Source: a virus. Taken from it: a stretch of 33,344 nucleotides of DNA. The notes beneath the pieces were generated by a model that saw only the letters and a list, made by a program, of their open reading frames with translations, did not search any database and was not told the origin of the DNA. Location of the stretch: the IMG/VR virus record IMGVR_UViG_3300031521_000228, positions 1 to 33,344 of that record. One strand, written 5' to 3'. A program made the position numbers and the translations under genes. Positions 151 to 24,614 of this stretch are shown in pieces. Within the stretch, counting starts at the first letter, position 1. Each line of letters begins with the position of its first letter.

Positions 151-589
151 TCCCCATATATAGACAACTATCTATATAATAAGTTGTGGCGTGCATTGTT
201 ATAATCAATACATCTATGTTATTATAATAATACTAATCAATAATAGAATAGTGCTTATTATCTTTATACAATCATTCTATTATTCTAATACTACCATGCT
301 ACACTATCACCAGAGAGGGGAGTCTATACTGCTATCACCATTAACCTATTATCTCAATAGTCTAGTAATTCAGTATGCTTTACTATTATATACTTATTAG
401 TAGTAATAGAATAATAATAGTATTATATTATTAGTTATACATGCAAGATATAACAAGCAGTAAAGTATTAATACATGTGTCGTTTATACTACAGTTGACT
501 CTTGTCTATTGTGTAGGGTATACACTGTATAGTTTATATATCTATAATAGATATACTACATCCATTCTATCATTGTACTAATTGTATCA
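151..589. other. Very AT-rich noncoding region, possible origin or control region
   Basis: No ORF with coding character is seen on either strand. The stretch is made of A/T runs with recurring TATAC, CTAATA and TAATAG words and several inverted repeats: TATATAGA/TCTATATA at 157-164/171-178, and 9-bp arms at 537-545/547-555 separated by one base. Such DNA melts easily, which would suit a replication origin or multi-promoter region. I see no DnaA boxes or regular iterons, so the origin idea is only a possibility. Confidence 0.4.
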
Positions 590-637
590 TTGTATACTAA
601 TCTAGTATACTTTATAATATAGTATTAATACATGTGT
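464..637 (+). repeat. 17-bp direct repeat pair
   Basis: AGTATTAATACATGTGT occurs exactly at 464-480 and again at 621-637. The second copy lies just after the promoter-like sequence at 590-618, at the predicted start of the candidate noncoding RNA. The core TATTAATA is palindromic. The repeats could be protein-binding sites; nothing in the sequence decides this. Confidence 0.6.
590..618 (+). promoter_or_regulatory. Possible promoter for the 625-1240 RNA
   Basis: TTGTAT at 590-595, 17 nt, then a perfect TATAAT at 613-618. The -35 matches consensus at only three of six bases and the surroundings are AT-rich, so a chance match is possible. Start would be near 625, just upstream of the hairpin-dense region. 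Confidence 0.35.
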
Positions 638-1240
638 TGTGTAAGCAACAAGTGTTGTTTATCTTATACCACCATTGAATCGAGAGTCTTGTATATGTGG
701 ATTCAAGGTAGCAGAGCATAAGCCATACAACAAGCATAAAAGAGTAAATAATAGAATAATACTATCATGTTTATATATAATAAACATTATAGTATGAATG
801 AATATACGCCATTTTACAGGCAAACAGGTACGAACTGGGGACAACCGCCCCATAGCAGGTTAAGTCACACAAACACTAATGTCCTGCATACCTCGGTAAA
901 TTATACAACCATTGCATATTCTCCCAATATGTGCTAAAATACTTACATAAAGTGTAATTTATAGTAGAAATAGAACCAATCTATCAGAACGTAATGACAG
1001 AAAATGTAGCCAATTAGACGTTCAAAGTAATGCAACCCGATAGAGCTTATTTTACCAATACGAGAATAGGAATAAAGGGAAGCCAATTTAACCTTATGAT
1101 GCTGACCGGATACGATGACTGAAGGATATAAAGTTAGGGAAATAGACAGTAAGTTGTCTGACAATTACCTTAACAAATGCGCCAAAAACGACATGGACTC
1201 TTAATAGGGGTTAATGTCGAATCTGGCGCAAATTTATTTT
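625..1240 (+). ncRNA. Candidate large structured noncoding RNA
   Basis: About 600 nt with no convincing ORF but many strong inverted repeats. ACC-TTGAATC/GATTCAA-GGT lies at 671-681/700-709 with a one-base bulge. A hairpin at 759-795 has two arms of 7 and 8 bp with a single mismatch and a 5-nt loop. Others are TGGGG/CCCCA at 836-840/848-852, GCAGG/CCTGC at 855-859/883-887, CATATT/AATATG at 915-920/926-931 and AGACA/TGTCT at 1144-1148/1155-1159. The last is a three-part hairpin at 1178-1230 (TGCGCCA/TGGCGCA, GACAT/ATGTC, ACTC/GGGT) followed by a T-rich tract that could end the transcript. Large ornate phage RNAs such as GOLLD and ROOL are the obvious class to test; I cannot confirm homology by eye. 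Confidence 0.4.
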
Positions 1241-1357
1241 GAAAAGCATAAACATTATAGAGTTAAAATAATATACGAAAAAGACTTTATATGCTGTAAT
1301 GACTTGGTTTTCAAAGGCAAGCCACAAAACTCATATAAATTTCTAATACTTATTTCC

Positions 1358-1386
1358 TTGACAGGATTTGAATTAGGTGGTAATAT
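1358..1386 (+). promoter_or_regulatory. Sigma-A type promoter for the helicase unit
   Basis: TTGACA at 1358-1363, exactly 17 nt, then TAATAT at 1381-1386, with TG one base before the -10 (extended -10). Predicted start is near 1393, about 100 nt ahead of the helicase start, leaving a structured leader. Confidence 0.75.
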
Positions 1387-1392
1387 CCTTTA

Positions 1393-1461
1393 TGCTGGAT
1401 AGTGTTGATTGTGGATGTACAGCCCTTTCCGCATGACAAAGGCTCACTCCCCTTTCCAGCA
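1393..1461 (+). promoter_or_regulatory. Folded 5' leader of the helicase mRNA
   Basis: The predicted transcript opens directly into TGCTGGA (1393-1399), which pairs with TCCAGCA (1455-1461). Inside it AAAGG (1438-1442) pairs with CCTTT (1451-1455), and the two 3' arms abut. The 5' end would be locked in a branched structure ending 12 nt before the ribosome site region. This could protect the mRNA or control translation. Confidence 0.45.
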
Positions 1462-1492
1462 AATTATCTTATTGGAGTAGATGGAGGTATTT

Positions 1493-2965
1493 GTGGGACA
1501 ACGGATTAGTGATATTATTACTTTGGAAGAAATTGAAAGAGATTGGAAAATGGGGATGAAGATATTGGTGAGAAGTCAAACAGGAACGGGAAAAACCTAT
1601 TGGGCGCAGAATACGATTTATGAATATTGTAAAAAGAATAACTATAAATGCCTTCTCTTTTCTAATAGGGTGGTTCTAAAGGAACAGAATGAAAAGTCTC
1701 TCGAAGGAAAAGATGACGTTTTTGAGATGGTAAACTACCAGAATATAAGTGAAAAGATTTACGGTGGGATTCCTCTCTCGGATGTTTATAATGGGTACGA
1801 TGTTATATTAATGGATGAAGTGCATTTCTTTTTAGAGGATGCACCGTTCAATAGAAAGACGGATTTACTTCTTCGTTCACTGAAGTTTATCTATCCCAAC
1901 AAACTAATTATCTTGCTGACAGCAACCCCTCAAATGCTTTTTACTTATAAATCCAAGTACGACAAGGTTTACAACTTTCCAGATGATTATTCTTATATCA
2001 ACAAAGTTCTTTTCTATAAGAAAGATGAGGCAATTGAGAGGCTTGTTTCAAATCTTCCTGATGGTGAAAAAGCAATTTATTTTGCTAGAAGTGCGGAAGA
2101 TGCCTATGAACTCAGCAAAAAGTTTGTTGGGAAATCGTCCTTTGTTTGTTCACCCGAAAAGAAGGCATACGGCAAACTGAGCGATAAAAATACCATCAAA
2201 CAAATAGTCAAAGATACCAAGTTTTCAACAACACTCCTTTGTTCAACGAAACTACTTGATACGGGAATTAATATTGAGGATGAAAATCTTAAAACAATAA
2301 TAATTGAAAGTTCAGACCCAATAAATATTATTCAAAGTGTTGGCAGGAAGAGAGTAAAAAATGAAAATGACAAATTGGATATTTATATAAAAAATGTTCA
2401 CAAGGGAGATATGCTCCAAAGAATTTCAGAATGTTCAAAAAATTTGTGGTGGGCTAGGGAATTGCGAGAATTGGGAAAAGAGGAATTTCAATTTAGACAT
2501 AGAAAGTCAAATCTTCCAGAAATTATAGATAATGATTTTACAGTAAATGTTGCAATTGAAGTTTATTATAAATATATGCTGGAATTCTACGAACATTTGA
2601 ATAAATCGGATGAGAAATTTAGACAATATTTTTATTCTCATTTTCAATATATTCCCGAAGAGGAAGAATTTGCAGAGCATGAAATACAGAAACCCGACAT
2701 AATCAGGGTCTTGGAAGAAAACAAAAATATAAAATTCTTCAAAGATGACCAGAAAATAATTGCCAAGAAATTCTTCGGAGTTCTTCTTTCTTCCAGCGTA
2801 GCGAATGACAGGAATATGGGATTTAATGTTATTTCAAAAATCATAGATAATAACAATATCCCTTTTGAAATAAAGTCTATAAAAGAAACAAAGGGTCAAA
2901 ACAGGGATAAAAAATATTGGATGTTTATTAGAAAACAAGAAGAGGTAAAAAATGAAAATAATTGA
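1493..2965 (+). CDS. SF2 (DEAD/DEAH-type) helicase
   Basis: ATP-driven superfamily 2 helicase, probably for phage DNA replication or recombination. Counted from the chosen start, motif I is QTGTGKT (29-35), motif II DEVH (108-111), motif III TAT (143-145) and motif VI QSVGRKR (281-287), so both RecA-like lobes are present. After about residue 340 comes a region with a basic C-terminal domain ending IPFEIKSIKET...WMFIRK, which recurs in the next gene. Start: GTG at 1493 sits 5 nt after GGAGG (1483-1487); an in-frame ATG at 1481 has GGAG only 3 nt upstream and would add four residues. It heads the unit behind the promoter at 1358-1386 and overlaps the next gene by 14 nt. Origin-melting helicases of T4 UvsW or phage D5-like type are alternatives within SF2; the exact role is not readable. 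Confidence 0.85.
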   Translation: MGQRISDIITLEEIERDWKMGMKILVRSQTGTGKTYWAQNTIYEYCKKNNYKCLLFSNRVVLKEQNEKSLEGKDDVFEMVNYQNISEKIYGGIPLSDVYNGYDVILMDEVHFFLEDAPFNRKTDLLLRSLKFIYPNKLIILLTATPQMLFTYKSKYDKVYNFPDDYSYINKVLFYKKDEAIERLVSNLPDGEKAIYFARSAEDAYELSKKFVGKSSFVCSPEKKAYGKLSDKNTIKQIVKDTKFSTTLLCSTKLLDTGINIEDENLKTIIIESSDPINIIQSVGRKRVKNENDKLDIYIKNVHKGDMLQRISECSKNLWWARELRELGKEEFQFRHRKSNLPEIIDNDFTVNVAIEVYYKYMLEFYEHLNKSDEKFRQYFYSHFQYIPEEEEFAEHEIQKPDIIRVLEENKNIKFFKDDQKIIAKKFFGVLLSSSVANDRNMGFNVISKIIDNNNIPFEIKSIKETKGQNRDKKYWMFIRKQEEVKNENN

Positions 2966-3218
2966 AAATGAGGAACAGATACTTTCCTTCTTGAACGCTA
3001 TAAAAAATAAACCAATAGAAGAAGATGAGACCCTTTTCTTTAAGAAGGAATTGGTGGATGTGGTATTCAAACCAAGGAGCAAGAGAAAGATGAATGCTTT
3101 TTGTAAACAAATGGGAATGGATGTATTTGAGGCAATCTTGGAAGACTTGGAATTGCCGTTTACAATAAAGACAATAAAAGAATCCCCTCCTGTGTATATG
3201 GTTAAAAAAGAGGAATAA
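2952..3218 (+). CDS. Small protein resembling the helicase C-terminal domain
   Basis: 88 residues, ATG preceded by AAGAGG and overlapping the helicase end. Its last 25 residues (LPFTIKTIKES...VYMVKKEE) line up with the helicase tail (IPFEIKSIKET...WMFIRKQEE), and the preceding helices also resemble each other. I infer a duplicated domain, released as a stand-alone protein. In many replication proteins such basic C-terminal modules bind DNA or a partner, so it may compete with or assist the helicase. No enzymatic motif is seen. Confidence 0.65.
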   Translation: MKIIENEEQILSFLNAIKNKPIEEDETLFFKKELVDVVFKPRSKRKMNAFCKQMGMDVFEAILEDLELPFTIKTIKESPPVYMVKKEE

Positions 3219-3219
3219 A

Positions 3220-3360
3220 ATGGAAACGGACAATAAGATTATGATTGACTTAGCCGACTGGTTGTTGGAGAAGGTAGAAGCATCTCCTGTATCAAAAGAG
3301 GATGTTTCTTTGAAAATGAGAGAATTAATGGCTAAATATTTTGAAGAGGAGAAACTATGA
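3220..3360 (+). CDS. Small acidic hypothetical protein
   Basis: 46 residues, starting METDNKIMIDLADWLLEKVE; acidic and probably all helical. AGGA lies just upstream (3211-3214) at the end of the previous gene, and its TGA overlaps the next ATG (ATGA), so it is probably translated by coupling. No recognised family. Confidence 0.55.
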   Translation: METDNKIMIDLADWLLEKVEASPVSKEDVSLKMRELMAKYFEEEKL

Positions 3361-3533
3361 TTATTACTAAAGAAAACTTTCATTGTGAAACAAAAGACCT
3401 TAACGGAAATTATTGTCCGGAAAGACCAATTCATCTCATTGATATTGGTGATGACGAACAAGTGCTTTTGTGTCATGAATGTGCGTTTAATTTTTTAATG
3501 AAAGAACATCTGGATAGACTAAAGGACTTTTAG
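3357..3533 (+). CDS. Small putative zinc-binding protein
   Basis: 58 residues, ATG overlapping the upstream TGA and preceded by GAGGAG. Cysteines are arranged as HC...YC early and CHEC later (LLCHECAFNFL), enough for one zinc site of the C-x(n)-C / C-x2-C kind. Many phages encode similar one-zinc-finger peptides; the partner is unknown. Last gene of the unit before the promoter at 3547. Confidence 0.6.
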   Translation: MIITKENFHCETKDLNGNYCPERPIHLIDIGDDEQVLLCHECAFNFLMKEHLDRLKDF

Positions 3534-3546
3534 ACAATAATTGCTC

Positions 3547-3575
3547 TTGACAAACCAGAATAATTGTGTTATCAT
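3547..3575 (+). promoter_or_regulatory. Sigma-A type promoter for the alarmone-hydrolase unit
   Basis: TTGACA (3547-3552), 17 nt, TATCAT (3570-3575) with TGT before the -10 (extended -10). It is 24 nt ahead of the ATG at 3599, with AAAGGA in between. Confidence 0.75.
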
Positions 3576-3598
3576 ATAAATAGAAAGGAAACGAAATA

Positions 3599-4033
3599 AT
3601 GGAAAATGAAACCTTAGAAAAAGCATTTCAATTTGCAAAAGAAAGACACGGAGACCAAATGTACGGTAAATTCCCGTATACATATCACCTATTGGATGTT
3701 CTGGATAAAGTGATAGAAATGGGAATGCCAATAGAGTATCAGACAGTAGCCCTTCTTCATGATACACTTGAAACTAAAACTACTTGGATTGAATTGAAAG
3801 ATAACTTCGGCAAATTCGTAGCAGGGTGTGTTTATTTCTTGACCAAAGATAAAGGTCAATCTTATGAAAGTTATATTAAAGAAATAAAGAACTTTCCTGA
3901 CGCTAGGGCAATAAAAATTTGTGACCTTCTTTGTAATCTAAAAGAGTCTTACAAAATGGAAGACTGTGAAATAAAATTCAAACTAATTAAGAAATATGAG
4001 AAAGCCCTGTTTACATTGGCTTCAGGAGAATGA
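3599..4033 (+). CDS. Small HD hydrolase of the RelA/SpoT (small alarmone hydrolase) type
   Basis: 144 residues that match the layout of the SpoT/MESH1 hydrolase domain. HGDQMYGKFPYTYHL (17-31) corresponds to the family's HxGQ...PYxxHP segment, ALLHDTLE (51-58) to ALLHDxxED, and AIKICDLLCNL to the IKLADRLHNM motif. These histidines and aspartates bind the Mn ion used to remove pyrophosphate from (p)ppGpp. There is no synthetase domain, so it should only hydrolyse. Inference: it lowers alarmone levels during infection, or detoxifies alarmone-type toxins. Another nucleotide substrate is possible, since HD proteins vary. First gene behind the promoter at 3547; overlaps the next gene by ATGA. Confidence 0.75.
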   Translation: MENETLEKAFQFAKERHGDQMYGKFPYTYHLLDVLDKVIEMGMPIEYQTVALLHDTLETKTTWIELKDNFGKFVAGCVYFLTKDKGQSYESYIKEIKNFPDARAIKICDLLCNLKESYKMEDCEIKFKLIKKYEKALFTLASGE

Positions 4034-4242
4034 GAATGGAAGAGAAAATTTGGAATGTTTTAAATTGGATTGATAATAATATAAACCACACAATCGTAGA
4101 TTGGGTTTTTAATCTCTTTGATTGTGAAAATGAAGATGGTTCAGATTCTTTATCTTACAGAATTTGGAAGGCAACATCTCATGCTTATTGTAATTGGGTA
4201 AATATAACATTAGCTGAAAAATGGAACTTGGAAGGATTTTAA
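4030..4242 (+). CDS. Small hypothetical protein
   Basis: 70 residues rich in Trp and Asn (WNVLNWIDNNINHTIVDWVFNLFDCENEDG). ATG overlaps the TGA of the alarmone-hydrolase gene, implying coupled translation; a second ATG at 4036 is possible. No membrane segment, no known motif. It may belong functionally with the hydrolase because of the coupling. Confidence 0.55.
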   Translation: MRMEEKIWNVLNWIDNNINHTIVDWVFNLFDCENEDGSDSLSYRIWKATSHAYCNWVNITLAEKWNLEGF

Positions 4243-4244
4243 AC

Positions 4245-4565
4245 ATGTTAAATATGTATTATAATGGTTCAGAGACGGTAATTGCAGAAAGTATTGAGGA
4301 TGCGGAAAAGGTGTGGGAAGAATCAACTGGTCAAAATTGGGAAGAATTTATGGGCGAATCGGATTTGGATGATGAGTGGGAATTGGTTCACAAAGAAAAC
4401 TGGACTGTAACATTTGAAGATGCAGAAGACGCAAATGAGTTTACAAAATCTGGAATTCTAAAATTACAGGAAAATTCTGAATTCGGCAGTTGGTATGTCA
4501 AGGGTTCAGAAGAAGATTGGATTAAGGTTCATGGTCGTGGATTTTTCTGTACGGAGAACTGGTAA
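4245..4565 (+). CDS. Acidic hypothetical protein
   Basis: 106 residues from the ATG at 4245, which has AAGGA 8 nt upstream; an in-frame ATG 24 nt earlier lies inside the preceding gene and lacks a ribosome site. Strongly acidic with many Trp and Glu (EDAEKVWEESTGQNWEEF). The composition resembles small phage proteins that mimic DNA or bind basic host proteins, but that is only a compositional hint. Confidence 0.6.
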   Translation: MLNMYYNGSETVIAESIEDAEKVWEESTGQNWEEFMGESDLDDEWELVHKENWTVTFEDAEDANEFTKSGILKLQENSEFGSWYVKGSEEDWIKVHGRGFFCTENW

Positions 4566-4566
4566 A

Positions 4567-4731
4567 ATGGAAAACATTAAAAAAGAAAGAACTCCTTTAC
4601 AACTAATTAGTATTGGTTTAGCCTTTGGATTTTGGTTGGGAATTTTGACATTTGACGTTTACATGACACCAACTGTAATTAAAAGTATTGGTGAAGTAAT
4701 CGCCCTAGTCTTAGATTCATTTGGAGTATAA
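4567..4731 (+). CDS. Small membrane protein
   Basis: 54 residues. After a charged start (MENIKKER) there is one clear membrane span (about residues 10-31, LQLISIGLAFGFWLGILTF) and a weaker second hydrophobic stretch near the C-terminus (IGEVIALVLDSFGV). It starts just after the upstream stop codon. No family recognised; small inner-membrane phage proteins often act in exclusion or lysis timing, which is speculation here. Confidence 0.6.
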   Translation: MENIKKERTPLQLISIGLAFGFWLGILTFDVYMTPTVIKSIGEVIALVLDSFGV

Positions 4732-4732
4732 A

Positions 4733-4951
4733 ATGTACATTATAAAAATCATGTATAATGATAAATCTGTTGGTTCTATTTCAACCGCATTTGAAGATGA
4801 AACATTTTTCAACCTCTTATATTCTTTTGAAACATCAGAGGTGGTACGTCAATTTACAGTATCAGATGCGGGTGGAATTATGACCAATGACCATTTTGGA
4901 TACGGTAAACTCCATAAGTGGGTTGAGACTTTCAACTACAAACCACAATAA
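4733..4951 (+). CDS. Small hypothetical protein
   Basis: 72 residues; ATG at 4733 has GGAG 5-8 nt upstream within the end of the previous gene. Mixed alpha/beta pattern (MYIIKIMYNDKSVGSIS..., then VSDAGGIMTNDHFGYGKLHKW). No catalytic motif identified. Its stop codon lies in the 5' arm of the first intergenic ATAAAA-N6-TTTTAT hairpin. Confidence 0.55.
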   Translation: MYIIKIMYNDKSVGSISTAFEDETFFNLLYSFETSEVVRQFTVSDAGGIMTNDHFGYGKLHKWVETFNYKPQ

Positions 4952-4965
4952 AACTGTAATTTTAT
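4948..4965 (+). repeat. Intergenic hairpin ATAAAA-N6-TTTTAT, copy 1
   Basis: ATAAAA (4948-4953) and TTTTAT (4960-4965) form a 6-bp stem with the loop CTGTAA. Nine exact copies with the same 6-nt loop length occur in this window: here and at 5262, 5838, 6050, 7057, 11641, 12765, 14923 and 27495. All lie between genes. The upstream stop codon usually sits in the left arm. The right arm usually reads TTTTATGA, giving an ATG. Confidence 0.7.
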
Positions 4966-4980
4966 GAGAGGAGAAATAAA

Positions 4981-5265
4981 TTGGAAGAACTTTTGAGAGG
5001 AATTATATTTTCAATAATATGGCTTGGAATTGTGATTTTACTAATGAATATTGGTGAAAGAAAAATTGTTATCAAAAACATTAATGATGATTGGAAATAC
5101 GAATTGTTTAAATTGGTTTATAAGATGTTTACAACAAAAAGAAACAATTATGAAATAAATGTAGTTGAGGCTCTTTTATCTCTAAATGAAACAGGAAAAG
5201 AAATTGCACAGGCTATTAGAAACCACACCGTTTACCTTTCTACAAGTGGTAGAAAAGACCAATAA
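4981..5265 (+). CDS. Membrane-anchored hypothetical protein
   Basis: 94 residues beginning at TTG, chosen because GAGGAG lies at 4968-4973 with 7-nt spacing and no in-frame ATG fits. One N-terminal membrane span (about residues 7-24, GIIFSIIWLGIVILLMNIG) is followed by a charged helical cytoplasmic or periplasmic-side domain. Function unknown. Confidence 0.6.
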   Translation: MEELLRGIIFSIIWLGIVILLMNIGERKIVIKNINDDWKYELFKLVYKMFTTKRNNYEINVVEALLSLNETGKEIAQAIRNHTVYLSTSGRKDQ

Positions 5266-5279
5266 AAGGCTTATTTTAT
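5262..5279 (+). repeat. Intergenic hairpin, copy 2
   Basis: Loop GGCTTA. The right arm reads TTTTATAAAGGAG, so here the ATG seen in other copies is ATA and the following AAGGAG serves the HD gene at 5293. Confidence 0.65.
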
Positions 5280-5292
5280 AAAGGAGAATATA

Positions 5293-5841
5293 ATGTATTT
5301 TGAAAAAGAATTAAACTTAATAAAAGACCCAATTGTTAGAGATATTGCGGAACAGGGGGTAAAACTTATTCCTGATTATTTTTATCATGTTCCAGCATCC
5401 TCAAGTGGAAAATACCACCCCTCTTATACAATTGGAGATGAAGGTCTTTATCGTCACGTAAAAGCGGCAGTTTCCATTGCCAAGATGCTTTTCAATATTC
5501 ATGATTTTACGGATTTAGAAGAGGATATTATCGTAGCATCTCTAATTCTCCACGATGGATGGAAACAGGGCTTGGATGGAAGTGGTGGTAAAACTCTCCA
5601 TACTCATCCATTGATTGCCGGAGACGTTCTCTCTGAATTGGTGGTTGTAGAAAATGGTGGAGAACAACTTGTACTAAATTCAATTTGTTCTAACATTGAA
5701 TCTCACATGGGACAATGGACTACCAGCCAATACGATGAAACGGTTCTACCCCTACCAGAAACAAAAATGCAAAAGTTTGTTCACCTATGCGACTATATTG
5801 CAAGCCGTAAACCATTAGAATATAACTTTGCAGTAGAATAA
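5293..5841 (+). CDS. HD-domain phosphohydrolase
   Basis: 182 residues of the HD metal-dependent phosphohydrolase fold. H55 (LYRHVKAAV), H87-D88 (LILHDGWK), the HTHP segment (103-106) and the later HLCDYIASRK supply the usual metal ligands; the order fits HD nucleases and nucleotidases such as YhaM-type or YfbR-type proteins. It is unrelated in detail to the alarmone-hydrolase-like gene at 3599. Substrate cannot be read; nucleotides from host DNA or RNA breakdown are likely candidates. Good ribosome site AAGGAG 8 nt upstream. Confidence 0.75.
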   Translation: MYFEKELNLIKDPIVRDIAEQGVKLIPDYFYHVPASSSGKYHPSYTIGDEGLYRHVKAAVSIAKMLFNIHDFTDLEEDIIVASLILHDGWKQGLDGSGGKTLHTHPLIAGDVLSELVVVENGGEQLVLNSICSNIESHMGQWTTSQYDETVLPLPETKMQKFVHLCDYIASRKPLEYNFAVE

Positions 5842-5855
5842 AAACATCATTTTAT
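5838..5855 (+). repeat. Intergenic hairpin, copy 3
   Basis: Loop ACATCA. It spans the stop codon of the HD gene and ends in ATGAGGA, which opens a 14-codon reading frame (MRTDKQWKK...) overlapping the gene at 5871. Confidence 0.65.
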
Positions 5856-5870
5856 GAGGACAGATAAGCA

Positions 5871-6047
5871 ATGGAAAAAATTGAAAATATATATATAAAC
5901 AAAGTAGACAATGAACTTTTTGATTTGATTTGGCTAGATTTGTCTGTTGAGGAAAAAGCGTATCTTATTATCAAGGCGGTAAATAGAAAATTGACCGTTG
6001 ATGGTCTTTTGATGAAAACCTTAAATAAAGTTAATATGCTTGATTAA
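5871..6047 (+). CDS. Small hypothetical protein
   Basis: 58 residues (MEKIENIYINKVDNELFDLIW...), acidic, two or three helices. GAGGA at 5857-5861 is 9 nt upstream. Too short to place; sandwiched between two copies of the intergenic hairpin. Confidence 0.55.
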   Translation: MEKIENIYINKVDNELFDLIWLDLSVEEKAYLIIKAVNRKLTVDGLLMKTLNKVNMLD

Positions 6048-6049
6048 CG

Positions 6050-6067
6050 ATAAAACTAAGATTTTAT
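6050..6067 (+). repeat. Intergenic hairpin, copy 4
   Basis: Loop CTAAGA, preceded by ACG as in copies 6, 8 and 9. The right arm starts a four-codon frame, MRIK-stop (6066-6080), whose TGA overlaps the ATG of the next gene at 6077. Confidence 0.65.
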
Positions 6068-6076
6068 GAGGATTAA

Positions 6077-6271
6077 ATGATTAAGAAAACTAAAAGAACC
6101 GAAGAATATTTTGAGATTTCAAGAAAACAATTTGAATTTATCTATGCTCTTTTTTTGAAAATTGGAGTTTGGAAAATTCTTGAAATTATGGGGATGGAAA
6201 GAAAGTCCAAAGATGAGGATTTTATAGATGATTTTTGGAAAGAGATTGCAGAAGCTCTTGATGAGGATTAA
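6077..6271 (+). CDS. Small helical hypothetical protein
   Basis: 64 residues, charged and helical (KKTKRTEEYFEISRKQFEFIYALF...), acidic end (EIAEALDED). GAGGA is 5 nt upstream. Start overlaps the stop of the MRIK leader frame in an ATGA, so translation may be coupled. No family recognised. Confidence 0.6.
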   Translation: MIKKTKRTEEYFEISRKQFEFIYALFLKIGVWKILEIMGMERKSKDEDFIDDFWKEIAEALDED

Positions 6272-6276
6272 TAATT

Positions 6277-6705
6277 ATGAATGTTTTAGATTGTATCAAA
6301 GTAAAAAAGGATTTTTATTGTTTTTGTTTTGAACCAGAGGAACTATCTTTGTCTACAATAGAGATAGCCTCTCTTCCTTCTCTAGTTAGCGAATTGATAA
6401 ATTGGTCGGTTGTTTCTGTATCCCCAAAAAACAGGGTTGGAAAAGTTTTAGTTTTTGATGTTATTCCATATAAATCAATTGACCCCCCATTGATTTTTTG
6501 TAAAGGAATAGATTTATCAAGATATTATTTAATTTGGAACATCGTTATAATTGATAAAGGGAGAAGTTGGGATAGAAAATTGGTTCTTCAAGAGTTTGAC
6601 GAGATGCTGAGAGAATTGAATATTTCTTCTTTGACCAGAGAAGAATCTTCGTTCCTTATTTTTAATCTTTTGAATTTTAAAAATGAATATATTCGAAGGA
6701 TGTAA
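6277..6705 (+). CDS. Hypothetical protein
   Basis: 142 residues with alternating beta-strand-like segments (DFYCFCFEPEEL, KVLVFDVIPYKSI, YYLIWNIVIIDKG) and a helical end. Ribosome site is GAGGA 10 nt upstream, in the end of the previous gene. No motif recognised. Last gene before the promoter at 6709. Confidence 0.6.
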   Translation: MNVLDCIKVKKDFYCFCFEPEELSLSTIEIASLPSLVSELINWSVVSVSPKNRVGKVLVFDVIPYKSIDPPLIFCKGIDLSRYYLIWNIVIIDKGRSWDRKLVLQEFDEMLRELNISSLTREESSFLIFNLLNFKNEYIRRM

Positions 6706-6708
6706 CCC

Positions 6709-6737
6709 TTGACTTTTATTCGGTTTTGTGATAGAAT
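6709..6737 (+). promoter_or_regulatory. Sigma-A type promoter
   Basis: TTGACT (6709-6714), 17 nt, TAGAAT (6732-6737), with TGA before the -10 (extended -10). It starts immediately after the upstream stop codon and is followed by AGGAGG and the ATG at 6754, leaving only about 10 nt of leader. Confidence 0.7.
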
Positions 6738-6753
6738 GTTCTAGGAGGAAAGT

Positions 6754-7050
6754 ATGAGAAAATTTAAATTTACAATAGAAATTGACAGAAACGAGGTTGG
6801 GGAAGGGATAATTGAAATTGACCAAAAAGTTTTTGATATTGCAAACTCCGAAGAATTTAAGAGATACTTCCACACATTCGGTGATGATGATGCTATAGCT
6901 TCTCATGTTGCATATCATATGATTTATCACCGCGAAAGTGTAAACGAAATAGAAGGATTTTATGGTGCTTTAGACAAATATGCCGCTAAAATTGTAGAGT
7001 ATCCGAGAGGATATGATGACTTTGAATTTTTAGCAGAAGAGATTGTTTAG
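6754..7050 (+). CDS. Hypothetical protein
   Basis: 98 residues, N-terminal strand pair (RKFKFTIEIDRNEVGEGIIEID) then helices with several histidines (ASHVAYHMIYHRES). Strong AGGAGG ribosome site and own promoter suggest abundant early expression. No family recognised. Confidence 0.65.
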   Translation: MRKFKFTIEIDRNEVGEGIIEIDQKVFDIANSEEFKRYFHTFGDDDAIASHVAYHMIYHRESVNEIEGFYGALDKYAAKIVEYPRGYDDFEFLAEEIV

Positions 7051-8327: not shown

Positions 8328-8340
8328 AGAGGTGAGTTTA

Positions 8341-10959
8341 TTGCTTAAGCTACAGAGTTTTTTCATTTATAAATTCAATACGAGAAGACTAAAACAAGAT
8401 GGATACCGAATAAACATAAACCCATCAGAAGCTAGAAGAAATAATGAAATGGTAAGAATTGGTGACTCTAATCTTTTGGAATTTTTGAGACGGATAAAGA
8501 AACAGGAATTATTATTTCCTGAAATTAAAAAATCAGAAAATGAAATAAAGAAGATTAGAAAAAATAAAAATTCTGTCAGAGCAAAAGAACGATTAGAAAA
8601 ATTGCAATATTCGGTAGATAAGTATTTGTTTATTCCAGAGATAATTTCGGTGGTGTTTGATGATAATAGACATTATAAACATCTGGTGAATAACGGATTA
8701 TACATAAACGGAATACTTTTTAAAAGACTGTATAGCGGCGCGGGAAATGCGAGACGTTCTACAGCATTTTTTATAGACGAGAGATATTACGAAAAAATGG
8801 ATTGGTATCTGGATTGTGGTAGAAAAGAATTAACCATAAATCCAAATAAGTATAATGCCTACTATTCACTTTCATCTTCGGCAGGAACACCAATTACTAC
8901 TCCTAGATTTACGGTTATTCCAGATTTAGAAATTATAAGACTTACAAAGGTTGATTTTGTAACAGAATCCACTGGACACGGAATAGACCCGAAAATTGAA
9001 GAAAAAGAAATTCAGCAAACATTCTCTGTGTTCGATGGTCAGGGAATTATGACCCCAACCTTTGCAAATCAGATTGCCTATGATTTAGAGTTGGACTACA
9101 CCCCTAGTTCATCAATCATTCGTTCAGCTTGGGTAAAAGGACTTTTAGTTTGTTTTGACTTCAAAGAGTTTGCGAGACAAAACAACGTTTCCGAGATAAT
9201 GGATATTTACGGTAACAGTTGCAATGTTGAAGAATTGGATGTTATTCTAACAGCAAGTCAATTTAAGATGTCTTCTGGATATGATAGTTTAGAACAATAT
9301 AAAGAAGAAGTTGCAAAGAGAGATTTTCAGTGGCGAGTAACTAGACCGTCTCCGAAGAAAGATAAGAACATTGTTCAAACCAATTATCAATATTTACAGT
9401 GTTTAGATTTAGATGATAACAGCATTGAGAGATTGTGTCAACCGACAATAAATTATCTAAAGGAAGTATCGGGTCTAAAGTGGTCGTCAATTATCCTATT
9501 CCTGATTGGTTCTATGCAAAAGAAGGATATAGACAAGAAATGGTTTGACAGATTAGACCCACTCATAAAAGTGTTATTTTATGAGCCTTTGTTGATTGAA
9601 AATGGGTTTGTAAGAAACAAGATAAAGAAGATGATTTCTAAGAAAATAAAAGAATCCTATATTGGGGTTCTAAATGTTGAAGGAAATTATTCAAACATGA
9701 TTTCTGACCCTCACGCATTTTCCCAACATGCCTTTGGGTTGCCAGTTACGGGATTACTTAACAGGAGAGAATTTTATTCTAATTATTGGAATAAGAAAAA
9801 TGTCAAGAAAGTTGCTTCTTTGAGAAGCCCCCTCACTTGGAAATCAGAAATAAATGTATTGGATTTGAAAAAAAATGAAAAAGTAGATTACTGGTACAAA
9901 TATCTAACTACCGGAATTATTTACAATATTTTCGATGAAAGTGTTATGTTGCATAGTGGTTGCGATTTTGATGGGGACATCACCTGCACAACAAACAATC
10001 AAGAAATTATAAATGGTGCTTCTGGTGGCAATCCAGTAACTTATGAAAGAAAGACTGCCCCTAAGTCAGATATAGATAAGGACAAGTTGTGGGAATCTGA
10101 CATCCAGACATTCGGGGGGAAGATTGGGTTCATCACAAATATTTCTAGTACCCTCCATAGTTTTCTTTGCTTATATAATGAAAATAGTGAAGAATATAAA
10201 ACTATTGAAAATAGGTTGAAAATATTAACGGCTTTTCAGTCCATGTCAATCGATAAAGCTAAAGGTATTGCAATTATGGATTTTCCCGATTGGTGGACAA
10301 AATGGGAAAAGGGCGAAGATTTTCAAAATAAAATACTTGCAGACAAACGCCCTTATTTTTTCAAGAATTTGTATGACCACTACAATAGAGAATATAAAAA
10401 ATATTTGAGCATTTATGATACTTTCTGCATCTCTAATTATGGCTTGAGTTTGCAACAGGTAAAAGAAAAAGAGAATAGAACCAAGGAACAGGAAAACACG
10501 CTTTATTATTTGAATAGATATAATCACCTGATAGATACACCTTCGGTCATGAACAAAATCTGTCATTACATGGAGAAGGAAGTTTCTCTTTTAAAGGATG
10601 CTAGAAACGACATGAACTTTGTGTTTCAGATAGACGAAGAAAAACTAGAAAAAATGAAACTTTTATATAAAGAGTGGAAAATTCTTCGTAAAAAACACGC
10701 CCAAGATGGTGAAAGTTTACTTCATTATGAAACAAAGAGAAAGGCGGACGAAATATCAGTAAATAGTAATGAGATTGCCAAGTTGGCATTGAATGTTTCC
10801 GTTGGTTTTGCTTTCAGCGTCTTTCCTGAATATGTAGAAGGATTATATAAAAAGAAGAATGTTGAAGTTCCTGTTTTAGATGAGAATGGAGATATTAAAT
10901 TTGATGGAGAAAAATATTCTCTCATGATTTTAGACTTGGAGGAAGAGTGGCTAGAGTAA
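8341..10959 (+). CDS. Single-chain DPBB RNA polymerase (YonO/QDE-1-like)
   Basis: 872 residues. The diagnostic motif is GCDFDGD, with D542, D544 and D546 holding the catalytic magnesium as in the DFDGD loop of multisubunit RNA polymerase beta-prime and in QDE-1/YonO enzymes. Upstream, LRSPLTWKSEINVLDL resembles the RNPclhPgDir block that precedes the active site in eukaryotic RNA-dependent polymerases of this superfamily. Downstream, a long helical region continues to the end. YonO of phage SP-beta and gp66 of crAss-like phages show that phage members transcribe DNA; I infer the same here, serving later phage genes. Start: TTG at 8341 has AGAGGTGA 5 nt upstream; GTG at 8332 lies inside that ribosome site. 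It sits behind a terminator and overlaps the next gene by 13 nt. Confidence 0.8.
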   Translation: MLKLQSFFIYKFNTRRLKQDGYRININPSEARRNNEMVRIGDSNLLEFLRRIKKQELLFPEIKKSENEIKKIRKNKNSVRAKERLEKLQYSVDKYLFIPEIISVVFDDNRHYKHLVNNGLYINGILFKRLYSGAGNARRSTAFFIDERYYEKMDWYLDCGRKELTINPNKYNAYYSLSSSAGTPITTPRFTVIPDLEIIRLTKVDFVTESTGHGIDPKIEEKEIQQTFSVFDGQGIMTPTFANQIAYDLELDYTPSSSIIRSAWVKGLLVCFDFKEFARQNNVSEIMDIYGNSCNVEELDVILTASQFKMSSGYDSLEQYKEEVAKRDFQWRVTRPSPKKDKNIVQTNYQYLQCLDLDDNSIERLCQPTINYLKEVSGLKWSSIILFLIGSMQKKDIDKKWFDRLDPLIKVLFYEPLLIENGFVRNKIKKMISKKIKESYIGVLNVEGNYSNMISDPHAFSQHAFGLPVTGLLNRREFYSNYWNKKNVKKVASLRSPLTWKSEINVLDLKKNEKVDYWYKYLTTGIIYNIFDESVMLHSGCDFDGDITCTTNNQEIINGASGGNPVTYERKTAPKSDIDKDKLWESDIQTFGGKIGFITNISSTLHSFLCLYNENSEEYKTIENRLKILTAFQSMSIDKAKGIAIMDFPDWWTKWEKGEDFQNKILADKRPYFFKNLYDHYNREYKKYLSIYDTFCISNYGLSLQQVKEKENRTKEQENTLYYLNRYNHLIDTPSVMNKICHYMEKEVSLLKDARNDMNFVFQIDEEKLEKMKLLYKEWKILRKKHAQDGESLLHYETKRKADEISVNSNEIAKLALNVSVGFAFSVFPEYVEGLYKKKNVEVPVLDENGDIKFDGEKYSLMILDLEEEWLE

Positions 10960-11606
10960 AACATTTGGATAAAATTCAAGCGAAGAGAATATTTGAAAAT
11001 GGCTTTGTCTTATATGACTACGCGGAAATGGTTGCCTTCTCTAAATATGCTATTAGAGAAGGTTGGTCTAAAGATAAGGCTGAAAAGTATATTAGAAATG
11101 AATTCTTTAAAAACGGAATGAATTTAGTTCTTCTTCAGTCAACAATTCACAAGGCGGTATTGAGTTCAAAGTATGACTTTCTTGAACAAGAAGAAGTGAT
11201 TATCACGAAAGAGGAAATTGCTGAGATTTCAAAATTGAAAAATAGGAAGTGGGAAAAGGCTTTATTTTCAATCCTTGTATTTGGAAAGAAGTATGGCATC
11301 ATTTTTAAATCCAACCTATACTCGTGGCAGGATTTGAAAGAAAATATAAAGAAGGTTGGGGTTCACATGAAACTGGACGAGTATAACCAGTTTCTTGCCA
11401 CCATTGGAAAAGAAAGAAAACTCGTAAATGCGGTAGTAAAGAAGAAAAAGCTCTCTTGGAGAATATCCTTTGCAAAAGATGATGGTGAGTTTTTCTGCCA
11501 AATAAAGGATTTCAATCGGGTTCAGGATTATCTTCCGAATTTCTGTAATGTCTGTGGGAAAGAGGTTTGGAAAAGGAAATATTGTTCTGAACACAGACCC
11601 AATTAA
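10947..11606 (+). CDS. Zinc-ribbon protein coupled to the RNA polymerase gene
   Basis: 219 residues, GTG start with GGAGG 4 nt upstream, inside the end of the polymerase gene. The N-terminal two thirds is helical and basic. The C-terminus carries C200-x2-C203 ... C213-x2-H216 (CNVCGKEVWKRKYCSEH), a zinc ribbon. I recognise no family. The 13-nt overlap implies co-translation with the polymerase, so a role as accessory subunit, promoter-recognition factor or processivity factor is a reasonable guess but unproven. Confidence 0.65.
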   Translation: MARVKHLDKIQAKRIFENGFVLYDYAEMVAFSKYAIREGWSKDKAEKYIRNEFFKNGMNLVLLQSTIHKAVLSSKYDFLEQEEVIITKEEIAEISKLKNRKWEKALFSILVFGKKYGIIFKSNLYSWQDLKENIKKVGVHMKLDEYNQFLATIGKERKLVNAVVKKKKLSWRISFAKDDGEFFCQIKDFNRVQDYLPNFCNVCGKEVWKRKYCSEHRPN

Positions 11607-13733: not shown

Positions 13734-13805
13734 GCGAAAGTAGCTCAATGGTAGAGCAAATGTTTTCCAAACATTAGGTTGTGGGTTCGAGACCCATTTT
13801 TCGCT
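13734..13805 (+). tRNA. tRNA-Gly (anticodon UCC)
   Basis: A complete cloverleaf can be drawn: acceptor GCGAAAG/TTTTCGC (one G-U), D stem GCTC/GAGC, anticodon stem AATGT/ACATT with loop TTTCCAA (anticodon TCC at 13766-13768), five-base variable loop, T stem GTGGG/CCCAT (one G-U) with loop TTCGAGA. CCA is not encoded. It reads GGA, a very common glycine codon in the genes here, which fits a phage tRNA that supplements the host supply. Confidence 0.95.
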
Positions 13806-13807
13806 CT

Positions 13808-13949: not shown

Positions 13950-14918
13950 ATGCAGAGACAACTATATATTGAATGTATGCAAAAATATAACAACGAAATA
14001 GATATTACTTGGCAGGAGTTGGCTGAAAAATATGGGATTTCTACTGGCAAAATTCTTTCAGATAGATGGCAGAGAATTAAAGATAAGGTAGACCCAATTT
14101 TAGAAGAAGATGGTGTTATGGGTGAAACTCCTTGTTTTCAGAAAAATAAAAACGCTCCGAAGATTTTAATTTTTGACATCGAGACCCATTTAAAAAATGC
14201 AAAACTTTTTAGACATGGTAAGCAATATGTGAATGCTTCTTCGTTCAGTGATTATGATTCAATGATTTGCTGGAGTGCGAAGTGGGTTGGAGACAATGAA
14301 GTTTTCGGGGATGTTCAAACTTCTACAGAGGCAGTTGAGAGAGACAATTCTAGAGTTACAAAATCTTTGTGGGATGCACTTTCAAGCGCAGACCTTACGG
14401 TTTCTCATAATGGAATAAACTTTGATTTGCCAATGGTAAACACATTTTTTATTGAAAATAGACTCGGTCTTCCGAATTTTTTCAGAAACATTGATACTTG
14501 TTCCATTGCAAGAAAAAACTTCAAATTTGAATCTAATTCATTAGACCATATTTGCAAACGGTTAGGAATCAATGATGGTAAAATGGATACATCTATTGAA
14601 TTGTGGGAAAAGTGTTACGTTGGTGAAAAAGAATCTTTGAGTTATATGTTCGAATATAACCAAATGGATGTAACTGTTTTGGAAGACCTTTATAATGTAT
14701 TTCTTCCATATATTCCGAGTTTTCCGAATTTGGGAGTTTGGGGAGATGTTACTCAGGCGAAGTGTCCTTATTGCGGAAGTACAAACTTTGAAGAGAAGGG
14801 ATATAAATATACTCCTTCAGGTAAGTTTAATTCTTATAGATGTGAATGTCAGGCTTTATTCAGAAGCAAAGAAAATCTTCTCTCTAAAGAATTCAAAAAA
14901 TTGCAAATGGTAACTTAG
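13950..14918 (+). CDS. DnaQ-like 3'-5' exonuclease with HTH and zinc ribbon
   Basis: 322 residues in three parts. Residues 1-45 look like a winged helix (ITWQELAEKYGISTGKILSDRWQRI). Residues 70-255 are an RNase H-fold exonuclease: D76-I-E78 (ExoI), HNGINFD with D159 (ExoII) and Y236-NQM-D240 (ExoIII). The C-terminus has a zinc ribbon, C272-x2-C275 ... C298-x-C300. Metal-dependent removal of nucleotides from DNA or RNA 3' ends is expected; the DNA-binding ends suggest a targeted nuclease rather than a polymerase proofreader. No polymerase is nearby. Start ATG has GGGAGAA upstream. Confidence 0.8.
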   Translation: MQRQLYIECMQKYNNEIDITWQELAEKYGISTGKILSDRWQRIKDKVDPILEEDGVMGETPCFQKNKNAPKILIFDIETHLKNAKLFRHGKQYVNASSFSDYDSMICWSAKWVGDNEVFGDVQTSTEAVERDNSRVTKSLWDALSSADLTVSHNGINFDLPMVNTFFIENRLGLPNFFRNIDTCSIARKNFKFESNSLDHICKRLGINDGKMDTSIELWEKCYVGEKESLSYMFEYNQMDVTVLEDLYNVFLPYIPSFPNLGVWGDVTQAKCPYCGSTNFEEKGYKYTPSGKFNSYRCECQALFRSKENLLSKEFKKLQMVT

Positions 14919-16400: not shown

Positions 16401-17210
16401 ATTTATACTGGAATTCGAGAAATTGAACCATCAAATGAGGAGTTGGCTGAATTCTATGAGGGGAAAATAAACTATAATTTGATAACAAATCAATATTTAA
16501 TTATAAAAAATTCCTCTGGGGAAGTGATTGATAAATTAAGATGGGATGGTGAAAGATTTATAAAACTATCTAGGACAAAATTACAGTCTATAAAACCAAA
16601 AACCCCAAAACAAGAGTGTCTTTTTGACTTGATTTCAAATAAAAATATACCCATAAAAATAATTGCTGGAGTGGCTGGTTCCGGAAAAAGCAAGATAGCC
16701 ATTTCTCACGGTTTGCATTTTGTTCAAAAGGGAGAATTCGGAAAGATTTTTATTGTTAGACATAATGTTTCTGTTGGTGAAAAGAATGGTTATGTAAAGG
16801 GTTCAAAGCTGGAAAAAGCTATGGCTTGGCTTGGCTTCTTCGAAGATAATATTGATGACCAACAATTAAATATGACAGATATGTTCGATAGAAAAATTCT
16901 CGATACAGACTTTCTTGAGGCAATGAAGGGTAGAGATTTAAAAAATGCCTTTATAATTGTTGACGAGGCGGAAGATTTAACGGTTGAACAATTTAAAATG
17001 ATGGGTGAAAGAGTTTCTTATGAAAGTTCGATATGTTTTGTAGGAGATTATAATCAAACAACTCAGGAAAAATATAAAAGCAATAGTGGATTATCTAGAG
17101 CAATTGAAAAATTAGCCGGAAATCCACTAGTCGGAATTATTGTTTTTTCTGATGCAAATTTAGATAACGTAAGAAGTGAGGCGAGCAAAGTTTTCACTTC
17201 CATATATTAA
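16401..17210 (+). CDS. phoH: PhoH-family ATPase, apparent ATT start
   Basis: 269 residues from the proposed start. Walker A GVAGSGKS (90-97), Walker B IIVDEAED (D188-E189) and the following GDYNQTTQ are the PhoH/RNA-helicase-like signature; bacterial and phage PhoH proteins hydrolyse ATP and probably act on RNA. The frame is open upstream of a TTG at 16443, giving YTGIREIEPSNEELAEFYEGK, which reads as protein. The only good ribosome site is GGGAGG (16389-16394), 6 nt before ATT at 16401; no ATG, GTG or TTG lies between. Starting at TTG 16443 would discard coding sequence and has GAGGAG directly abutting it. Confidence 0.75.
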   Translation: MYTGIREIEPSNEELAEFYEGKINYNLITNQYLIIKNSSGEVIDKLRWDGERFIKLSRTKLQSIKPKTPKQECLFDLISNKNIPIKIIAGVAGSGKSKIAISHGLHFVQKGEFGKIFIVRHNVSVGEKNGYVKGSKLEKAMAWLGFFEDNIDDQQLNMTDMFDRKILDTDFLEAMKGRDLKNAFIIVDEAEDLTVEQFKMMGERVSYESSICFVGDYNQTTQEKYKSNSGLSRAIEKLAGNPLVGIIVFSDANLDNVRSEASKVFTSIY

Positions 17211-17308: not shown

Positions 17309-17322
17309 CAATGGAGTTTTTA

Positions 17323-18141
17323 ATGGGGGAAAAAATATCTGGAATTTATTGTATTGAAAATGTATTAAATGGTAAAAAATATATAGGAAAAGCCTTTGAC
17401 ATATACGGTAGATGGGTTCAGCATAAATCAGCATTAACTAAAAATCGAGATAGTTTTCATCTACAACAATCTTGGAACAACAATGGAGGAGAAAACTTTT
17501 CTTTTTATATAATAGAAATATGTTCCCCCGAAACCTTGAACGAAAAAGAAAAGTTTTGGATAAAGGAATATAAAACTTTTGGATTCAATGGAATATATGG
17601 TTTTAATTTAACGGAGGGGGGAAACGGGACATCTGGATATTCTCTCACCCAAGAAACAAAAAATAAAATATCTAAAAAAAATAAGGGGAGAACTGTTTCC
17701 GATGAAGCTAAGAAAAAAATGTCAGAAAATGCTTCAAGAAAATATGGGAATGAGAATTGGATGCACGTAAACGGTCACTCTGATGAATCTAAAAAAAGAA
17801 TGTCAGATTCTAGAAGAGGAGAAGATAATTCGTTTTTCGGAAAACAACACTCAGAGGAAGCAAAAAAGATTATTTCCGAAAAAAATAAAAATCCCCCAAT
17901 GGATAAAAGGATTTTGCATTCAAAAATAATGCGTAATAAAAAAGGAAATAACGTGAGTTCAAAATATTTCGGAGTTTCTTTCCATAATAGGAAAGATATT
18001 AAGAAAAAATGGAGGGCAAAAATAGGTATATTGGGGGTGGTTGTGGAAATAGGTCATTACATGACCGAGTTAGAAGCCGCAATTGCTAGGGATGAATACG
18101 TTATAAATAATGAGTTAGATTATCCATTAAATTTTACATAA
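17323..18141 (+). CDS. GIY-YIG homing endonuclease with NUMOD3 and AP2-like domains
   Basis: 272 residues. GIY (7-9), YIG (20-22) and R30 (DIYGRW) mark the GIY-YIG nuclease, with a downstream Glu in LNEKEKFWIKEY. Next come two NUMOD3-type DNA-binding repeats (SDEAKKKMSENASRK, HSEEAKKIISEKNKN). The C-terminus (KYFGVSFHNRKDIKKKWRAKIG...HYMTELEAAIARDEY) is an AP2-like DNA-binding domain. It is free-standing: phoH upstream and the protease downstream are both intact, so no intron is implied. ATG 17311 is an alternative start with only 2-nt spacing. It would cut a phage lacking the insertion and spread itself by repair. Confidence 0.9.
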   Translation: MGEKISGIYCIENVLNGKKYIGKAFDIYGRWVQHKSALTKNRDSFHLQQSWNNNGGENFSFYIIEICSPETLNEKEKFWIKEYKTFGFNGIYGFNLTEGGNGTSGYSLTQETKNKISKKNKGRTVSDEAKKKMSENASRKYGNENWMHVNGHSDESKKRMSDSRRGEDNSFFGKQHSEEAKKIISEKNKNPPMDKRILHSKIMRNKKGNNVSSKYFGVSFHNRKDIKKKWRAKIGILGVVVEIGHYMTELEAAIARDEYVINNELDYPLNFT

Positions 18142-18180: not shown

Positions 18181-18798
18181 ATGAGACTAGGTGGAATTCA
18201 CGAAGATACAAATGGTTCTGGAAGTAAAAGTTTTGGATTTATGGGAATGAGGGATGAAATAATATATAGAGGACTCAAACGAAGAACTCTCTATATTTAC
18301 GATGATATAGACGATGAAATGGAGTTAATTCTAAATCATTCTCTCGAAAGACTTTGCAAACCAAATTCTGAGGGAAAGAAAGAACCAATAACAATAAAGG
18401 TTTCTAGTTATGGTGGAGACAGCAATGCAATGTTTTCCATCATCGGTTCCATTGAATCTTGTATCTCTGAAGGTTATCCTGTTATAACAAAAGGTTATGG
18501 AAAAGTGGCTTCAGCAAGTATTCCCATTCTTCTTAGCGGGAGTGAAAGATATTGCCAAAAATTTACAAGATTTACTTTGCACAATATTCAGTTATTTATA
18601 ATGGGTGGAGTTTCCGGTGAACAAATAAAAAGAATTCATTCTGATACAGATGATGTATTGAAGGCTTATGAGAAAATTGTTATTTCTAAATCTAAAATAT
18701 CAAAAGAGGAATTTAGAAAACAGTTGGATAGAGATGCCGAATGGTCTTTTTTTGGAACCGACGCACTAAAACTTGGAATGGTTGACAAACTAATTTAG
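18181..18798 (+). CDS. ClpP-like serine protease, possible prohead protease
   Basis: 205 residues with the ClpP/S14 layout. SYGGDSNAMFSIIGSI matches the SPGG oxyanion strand, S111 in GKVASAS is the nucleophile position, H134 in RFTLHNIQ the histidine, and D183 or D185 in LDRDAEW the third residue, followed by ALKLGMVDKL. Phages use such proteases to trim capsid and scaffold during head maturation; here it lies two genes before the terminase rather than after the portal, so a Clp-like role in the cell is also open. Ribosome site AAGGA 10 nt upstream. Confidence 0.85.
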   Translation: MRLGGIHEDTNGSGSKSFGFMGMRDEIIYRGLKRRTLYIYDDIDDEMELILNHSLERLCKPNSEGKKEPITIKVSSYGGDSNAMFSIIGSIESCISEGYPVITKGYGKVASASIPILLSGSERYCQKFTRFTLHNIQLFIMGGVSGEQIKRIHSDTDDVLKAYEKIVISKSKISKEEFRKQLDRDAEWSFFGTDALKLGMVDKLI

Positions 18799-24138: not shown

Positions 24139-24614
24139 TGACCCTAACGAAAGATGAATACAGGGATAGAATTATATCCCATAAATTATCCGTGAAAACC
24201 GGTATTCAAAGAATTGTGGATGAGTTAGAGTCGAGGGCGGAGAAACATGATGACGACAAACTTTATCCCAGAATACTTGAAAATTTTATGAATGTTTCAA
24301 ATAAGTTCAGTGGGGTTAAATTTGCTTCTACTGAATATAATGAAATTCTAAATGAATTAAAACCAGTCTTGAATGAGCATTATGAAAAAAGTCCTCATCA
24401 CCCGGAACACAATATTAACGGAATAAATGGTATGACTTTAATTGATTTAATTGAAATGTTAGTTGATTGGAAATCTGCTTCAACTGCTTATGGGGACACC
24501 TTTTATGAATCTTTGAAAATAACAAAAGAAAGATTCAATATAGGAGAACAGTTATTTGAAATTTTATTAAACACATCGAAGGAATTGGGTTACTTGCCGA
24601 AAGGAGAAAATTAA
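24138..24614 (+). CDS. DUF5662-like protein
   Basis: 158 residues. SHKLSVKTGIQRIV, then EKHDDDKLYPR, HYEKSPHHPEHNINGINGMTLIDLIEMLVDWKSA follows the DUF5662 pattern (HK, HDxSK, HxxxxPHHPEH, DLIEMLxDW), a helical bundle with conserved His/Asp that resembles HD-type metal sites. Biochemistry of the family is unknown to me. It overlaps both neighbours at start and stop codons. Confidence 0.75.
   Translation: MTLTKDEYRDRIISHKLSVKTGIQRIVDELESRAEKHDDDKLYPRILENFMNVSNKFSGVKFASTEYNEILNELKPVLNEHYEKSPHHPEHNINGINGMTLIDLIEMLVDWKSASTAYGDTFYESLKITKERFNIGEQLFEILLNTSKELGYLPKGEN

Follow-up and report, generated by a model that had tools for sequence, protein, structure and literature searches.

A YonO-like phage RNA polymerase and its overlapping, putative DNA-binding partner: a probable two-subunit enzyme

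The plus-strand gene at 8341–10959 of the window (the whole stretch of viral DNA analysed here, 33,344 nt in length) is confirmed as encoding a YonO-like RNA polymerase, and we regard this identification as settled. Its 3′ end is overlapped by a gene for a 219-amino-acid protein, referred to here as the partner, and the link between the two proteins as subunits is well supported. We put at roughly 0.7 the probability that they constitute a two-subunit YonO-like phage RNA polymerase in which the partner recruits the enzyme to late promoters. The sequence-only reading had described a single-chain polymerase. It was right in that one chain of 872 residues accommodates the two-barrel fold, but this description is probably incomplete, the co-translated partner gene having been missed. 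Given that the partner gene overlaps the polymerase gene in most relatives and is fused to it in some bacteria, the supposedly one-piece enzyme is probably a two-part machine.

The polymerase reading frame is uninterrupted and comprises 872 codons plus a stop codon (10957–10959). It starts with TTG at 8341, preceded by the Shine-Dalgarno sequence AGAGGTGA (8329–8336, plus strand), and both ends of the gene are exact because the family alignment starts at the same residue as this TTG. The catalytic metal-binding motif D542-F-D544-G-D546 (residues 542–546; 9964–9978) and the block LRSPLTWKSEI (residues 494–504; 9820–9852) lie in this single frame, the former at the residues given by the sequence-only reading and the latter N-terminal to it, as that reading had noted. 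In an alignment with plant RDR2 the former corresponds to DLDGD, and the latter is the counterpart of the conserved block found N-terminal to the aspartates in eukaryotic RDRs. Among 39 family members D542, D544, G545, D546, R495 and P497 are invariant, as are the lysines K170, K266, K309 and K641.

The Pfam family RdRP (PF05183) matches residues 109–657 (E = 2.6e-11, with a score of 43.4 bits where the curated threshold is 23.8), PHROG 8308 matches with E = 5e-110, and tblastn finds a homologue in 36 phage records; the match is thus far beyond chance. The tblastn homologues range from those of phage BUCT082 (38% identity over 85% of the query) and of Enterocloster phages (31–34%) to YonO of phage SPbeta (26.5% over residues 113–679, E = 2e-24), which carries the same motif and belongs to one alignable family with the window protein. 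Jointly with the Foldseek matches to RDR2, QDE-1 and crAss-like gp66 described below, PF05183 and the YonO match bear out the earlier assignment to the YonO/QDE-1 superfamily. The window polymerase is an additional member of the YonO-like enzymes and not a separate superfamily. Of the new branch suspected earlier, a well-supported sub-branch of YonO-like enzymes stands, but its novelty does not, as it already includes BUCT082, PMBT24 and CB473P1; records of this sub-branch are mostly annotated as 'hypothetical' or 'RNA-dependent RNA polymerase'.

An AlphaFold2 model of the polymerase (mean pLDDT 90.4, pTM 0.85) matches maize and Arabidopsis RDR2 and QDE-1 over nearly the whole chain in Foldseek searches (E from 4.6e-19 to 2e-15, probability 1.0; best values 4.6e-19 for RDR2 and 6.6e-17 for QDE-1). 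Judged at the fold level, the modelled protein has the two-barrel fold of RNA polymerases and RDRs in one chain, and its DFDGD motif is predicted in a loop between strands 526–528 and 547–551, as had been anticipated; at this level the protein withstands the refutation criterion set by the sequence-only reading. QDE-1 and RDR2 share with it the two-barrel fold and the DxDGD motif over the whole chain; they differ in sequence (12–15% identity, TM-score about 0.4–0.5) and in their biology, which is RNA silencing, a pathway not expected in a phage. We know of no partner of this kind for QDE-1 or RDR2. The match to solved structures (plant RDR2) came from a search with an alignment profile, and a search with the single protein sequence gave no match among solved structures; profile searches with the divergent alignments A1 (bacterial contigs) and A2 yielded no usable conserved stretch. 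Among single-chain two-barrel phage polymerases, gp66 of the crAss-like phage phi14:2 is a significant Foldseek match (E = 1.4e-4) and gp96 of P23-45 a marginal one (E = 2e-3, probability 0.57). For these and for P23-45 gp64 the likeness is one of distant fold only (PMC10770324), and both gp66, with more than 2100 amino acids, and gp96, which is fused to a tail tape measure protein, are unlike the window enzyme.

Several phage records, namely PMBT24, Perkons and TR-TP1, label such proteins as RNA-dependent RNA polymerases. This label is understandable in that the nearest solved folds and the Pfam match are eukaryotic RDRs, and QDE-1 uses both RNA and DNA (PMC2950127), but as a description of the window enzyme we consider it very improbable. 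YonO, the sole tested member of its phage branch, strongly prefers DNA templates in vitro (PMC5467207), and the gene sits in the genome of a dsDNA tailed phage together with terminase, portal and structural genes. By analogy with YonO, which is strictly DNA-dependent in vitro (PMC5467207), DNA is the best guess for the template of the window enzyme and RNA templating appears unlikely.

The window is a 33-kb fragment of such a genome, with nearly all genes on the plus strand. It encodes a helicase (1481–2965), a DNA-polymerase-type exonuclease (13950–14918) preceded by a single tRNA-Gly gene with anticodon TCC (13734–13806), PhoH (16443–17210), a ClpP-like head protease (18181–18798) and, between the latter two, a GIY-YIG/NUMOD3 homing endonuclease (17311–18141). 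These are followed by a GH25 endolysin with a phosphodiester glycosidase domain (24614–26374) and, 3′ of its gene, by sugar-modifying genes. The large terminase subunit (20128–21996) and the portal protein (22516–24138), whose presence in the same phage had been recognized before, are encoded on the plus strand between protease and endolysin. The polymerase gene thus lies upstream of late structural genes on the same strand (terminase and portal at 20–24 kb), and this order recurs in relatives, the close ones including temperate phages of the SPbeta group. Likewise, in SPbeta and its relatives the polymerase gene is located upstream of the HU/yonK/terminase/portal block.

The partner gene (10947–11606, plus strand) starts with GTG, overlaps the end of the polymerase gene by 13 nt and has its Shine-Dalgarno sequence GGAGG (10938–10942) within the polymerase 3′ end. 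In a confident AlphaFold2 model (pLDDT 88.8) four helices are followed by a unit resembling a winged helix (approximately residues 88–173) and then by a zinc ribbon, C200-x2-C203…C213-x2-H216 (11544–11594). Despite an identity of only 16–26% to the window protein, an alignment of 39 partners reveals a common core and an invariant C-terminal ribbon in which C200, C203 and C213 are invariant and the C216 position, H216 in the window protein, is at least 90% conserved. Fold matches in the PDB are mostly winged helices, none of them significant (best E = 0.35). Based on these predictions the partner is a putative DNA-binding zinc protein whose N-terminal domain is helical and whose C-terminal zinc ribbon follows a predicted winged helix. 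Pfam and NCBIfam give it no name, PHROG 30716 (function not annotated) covers 30 of the 39 partners, and searches of Pfam, PHROG and NCBIfam gave no sequence homology to sigma factors or TFIIB. The partner profile recognizes the window protein with E = 8e-46, a value to be read in the light of the window sequence being itself a row of that model. Pairwise comparison starting from the window partner retrieved no relative, and its family membership therefore rests on this profile and on the position of the gene.

A gene for 210–300 amino acids is present at the same place in BUCT082, in the Enterocloster phages and in metagenomic relatives. The closest annotated pair, UAW07825/UAW07826 of BUCT082 (both genes annotated hypothetical), has the same overlapping layout, and its partner is 24% identical to that of the window. 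When loci were fetched by the polymerase alone, an open reading frame ending in a ribbon followed the polymerase gene directly in 64 loci, nearly always overlapping it; four further loci have an open reading frame recognized by the partner model (complete in L022, L045 and L046, cut by the contig end in L003) and L043 has a more weakly matching one. Partners without a ribbon are encoded in TR-TP1, L058 and L244, and L056 has no recognizable partner. The reciprocal test, with 80 loci fetched by the partner alone, placed a polymerase just upstream in all 75 loci in which its end is present (72 overlapping, three at distances of +8, +197 and +718), and the other five are truncated, either right at a contig end or no more than 430 nt from one. 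Among 50,697 annotated phage records the partner query hit six, all of which also encode the polymerase.

The linkage extends to bacteria, for which a set of 640 genomes was used (250 from one family and 391 from one class, one genome being common to both). Where bacterial polymerases are close to the phage type and lack a ribbon tail, a partner gene adjoins. In bacterial genomes outside the models the partner is found next door in L267–L270 (E = 9e-82 to 2e-13), and among 2229 open reading frames of the bacterial loci the only non-polymerase frames matching the partner model sit directly after a polymerase gene. In locus L029 a DNA methyltransferase gene (5734–6477) is inserted between polymerase and partner; both are intact and the partner gene still comes next. 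An open reading frame with zinc ribbons downstream of the L080 polymerase was rejected as a partner: it encodes a GIY-YIG-like protein and the partner model gives E = 0.42.

In two bacterial polymerases the partner is a fused tail. The C-terminal tail of L241 (1130 amino acids, with an intact DWDGD) corresponds to partner positions 89–258, that is to winged helix and ribbon (E = 2e-8 among the 2229 open reading frames), and that of L252, from another genome, corresponds to positions 41–206, which cover the helical and winged-helix part and no ribbon (E = 2e-5). Comparison of profile with profile gave a score of 41.7 for the fused tails; 40 column shuffles reached no more than 18.6. Fusion in some genomes combined with strict adjacency in others is a well-known hallmark of proteins acting together. 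The tail of L175/L239 was not counted as a fused partner, as its match is weak (E = 0.006) and not significant alone. The bacterial genome G013 encodes three different YonO-like polymerases: L241 with the fused full partner, L240 with a ribbon tail and L239 with a long tail of unsettled kinship.

These observations bear on the possibility that the polymerase is a one-piece YonO-like enzyme and its neighbour a late regulator in its own right (a repressor or a replication protein, for instance) with which it has only the operon in common. Operon neighbours are common in phages, genes for an HU-like protein and a metallophosphoesterase also lie near the polymerase gene in many relatives, and YonO elongates alone (PMC5467207). 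Yet adjacency and overlap persist across a very diverged clade, the linkage outlives the methyltransferase insertion, and in two bacterial polymerases the partner is a fused tail; we regard an independent neighbour as rather improbable.

In SPbeta YonO, in Perkons and in 14 other loci a zinc ribbon ends the polymerase itself and there is no partner gene. By contrast, the window enzyme has no ribbon of its own, ends in a beta-strand tail and is accompanied by a separate ribbon-bearing partner. As judged by sequence, the ribbon of SPbeta-type polymerases is homologous to that of the partner: the partner model matches polymerase ribbon tails (YonO, E = 1.9e-6; L088, E = 5.6e-8), and PHROG 37506 matches proteins of both kinds. 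In the tree, polymerases with a ribbon tail form one group and those with a partner the other, and the window polymerase is placed outside the clade of SPbeta YonO with a support of 100. The mutual exclusivity of ribbon tail and partner amounts to one change on the tree and hence carries little statistical weight; we dropped it as independent evidence.

In the two-subunit enzyme that we propose, the 872-residue chain would supply both double-psi beta-barrels, the catalytic Mg2+ ions being bound by the DFDGD motif of one and the NTP being handled by conserved lysines of the other, for which K266 and K309 are candidates. The 219-amino-acid protein would be a dedicated accessory subunit, co-translated from the overlapping gene and presumably in physical complex with the polymerase. 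This subunit probably attaches to the polymerase through its zinc ribbon, a part we propose for the ribbon because this is what YonO keeps, and contacts of its winged helix with upstream DNA probably recruit the enzyme to late promoters, in functional analogy only to sigma factors or TFIIB on cellular RNA polymerases. The enzyme would most likely copy double-stranded phage DNA into late mRNA. As YonO elongates (PMC5467207) without a winged-helix part, catalysis does not require the partner in all members.

Late promoters come into focus through BUCT082, an SPbeta relative (68.7 kb align, mostly at more than 90%) in which the pair has replaced YonO. At 535–6966 of its genome (MZ969646) a cassette of polymerase, partner and a 515-amino-acid gene of no known function, unrelated at the DNA level, stands in place of yonP-yonO, and the yonN-yonK region after the swap is 94% identical in the two phages. 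YonO is the DNA-dependent RNA polymerase required for the late genes of SPbeta, with a YonO-dependent late start upstream of yonK; the promoter sequence and any need for a factor were reported as unknown (Forrest et al. 2017, PMC5467207). From the swap beside a conserved late promoter region it appears that polymerase and partner fill in BUCT082 the role that YonO has in SPbeta. On our assumption that the prophage borders are 2151623–2286038, the published start coordinate 2225998 corresponds to about SPBc2 60041. At this converted coordinate diverged SPbeta relatives conserve a block, …GGTnTTG…TTCACTTA (about L009:15440–15460), which BUCT082 keeps. The pair in BUCT082 appears to rely on a promoter region that had only YonO as its enzyme during evolution. 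This is awkward for the partner as the sole promoter reader: if it is the sole reader, either it must read the promoter of YonO or transcription in BUCT082 starts elsewhere.

The unchanged promoter region beside a changed enzyme would be easier to reconcile with the main alternative, in which the partner acts as an elongation, processivity, termination or antitermination factor whose ribbon touches RNA or the hybrid, comparable to TFIIS/Rpb9-like proteins. That YonO-type polymerases retain just the ribbon, and that YonO is highly processive in elongation (PMC5467207), would also fit such a role, whereas the rest of the partner resembles a winged-helix DNA-binding protein, albeit with fold matches that are not significant. 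On balance we judge a role of this kind to be unlikely, if less so than an unrelated operon neighbour, and prefer recruitment to late promoters.

Whether YonO reads promoters alone or needs a factor was not settled by Forrest et al. (2017; PMC5467207). The conserved, sometimes fused partner is a concrete candidate for such a factor and makes for a two-protein system open to purification; moreover, SPbeta with YonO alone and BUCT082 with polymerase plus partner provide a natural control pair with nearly the same late promoter region. It is tempting to speculate, with the chances about evenly balanced, that in most phages the YonO-like polymerases belong to a minimal two-subunit class, combining one two-barrel catalytic chain with a winged-helix/zinc-ribbon initiation factor unrelated to sigma or TFIIB. 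This factor could be split off, fused or pared down to the ribbon, and SPbeta YonO would be the ribbon-only variant. Neither the arrangement of the two genes nor its reciprocal conservation nor the fusion is mentioned in PMC5467207, PMC7824862, PMC7481178, PMC10770324 and PMC8270828; they may have been noticed before elsewhere.

The search for promoters in the window led to no assignment: sigma-70-like sites are no commoner there than in shuffles, and the GGTnTTG…TTCACTTA block is absent in sense orientation. The window contains ten perfect 18-bp copies of the dyad ATAAAA-N6-TTTTAT (at 4948, 5262, 5838, 6050, 7057, 9565, 11641, 12765, 14923 and 27495), with a chance expectation far below one. 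Nine of them mark gene junctions, and the majority directly precede a ribosome-binding site. The same sequence is the commonest 6-bp dyad (gaps of 0–19) also in BUCT082 (15 copies), SPbeta (13) and the records of L016 and L020 (32 each), and in the L002 record the equally spaced dyad ATGAAA-N6-TTTCAT occurs 43 times. We rejected the dyad as a promoter of the polymerase: it is palindromic, occurs also at early and middle genes of SPbeta and is missing from several polymerase-bearing relatives. Neither is it the MrpR operator SPBRE, as SPBRE-bound promoters share TATACATATT, nor an RNA hairpin, as seven of eight copies fold no better than shuffles. In L004 (36–5797) several short open reading frames begin almost identically (NEILESGQ…), so that a block of DNA around these starts is repeated.

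Rfam detected no group I intron in the window. Elsewhere in the family, an interruption of about 0.94 kb (2090–3036) falls exactly within the catalytic motif (DFD|GD) of the polymerase gene of L012 (MT835481), and in L008, L062, L065 and L068–L071 the gene is split at the conserved IDKAK motif, in L065 by a recognizable group I intron at 5499–5827. PHROGs 25339 and 35857 seem to represent one half each of polymerase genes split in this way.
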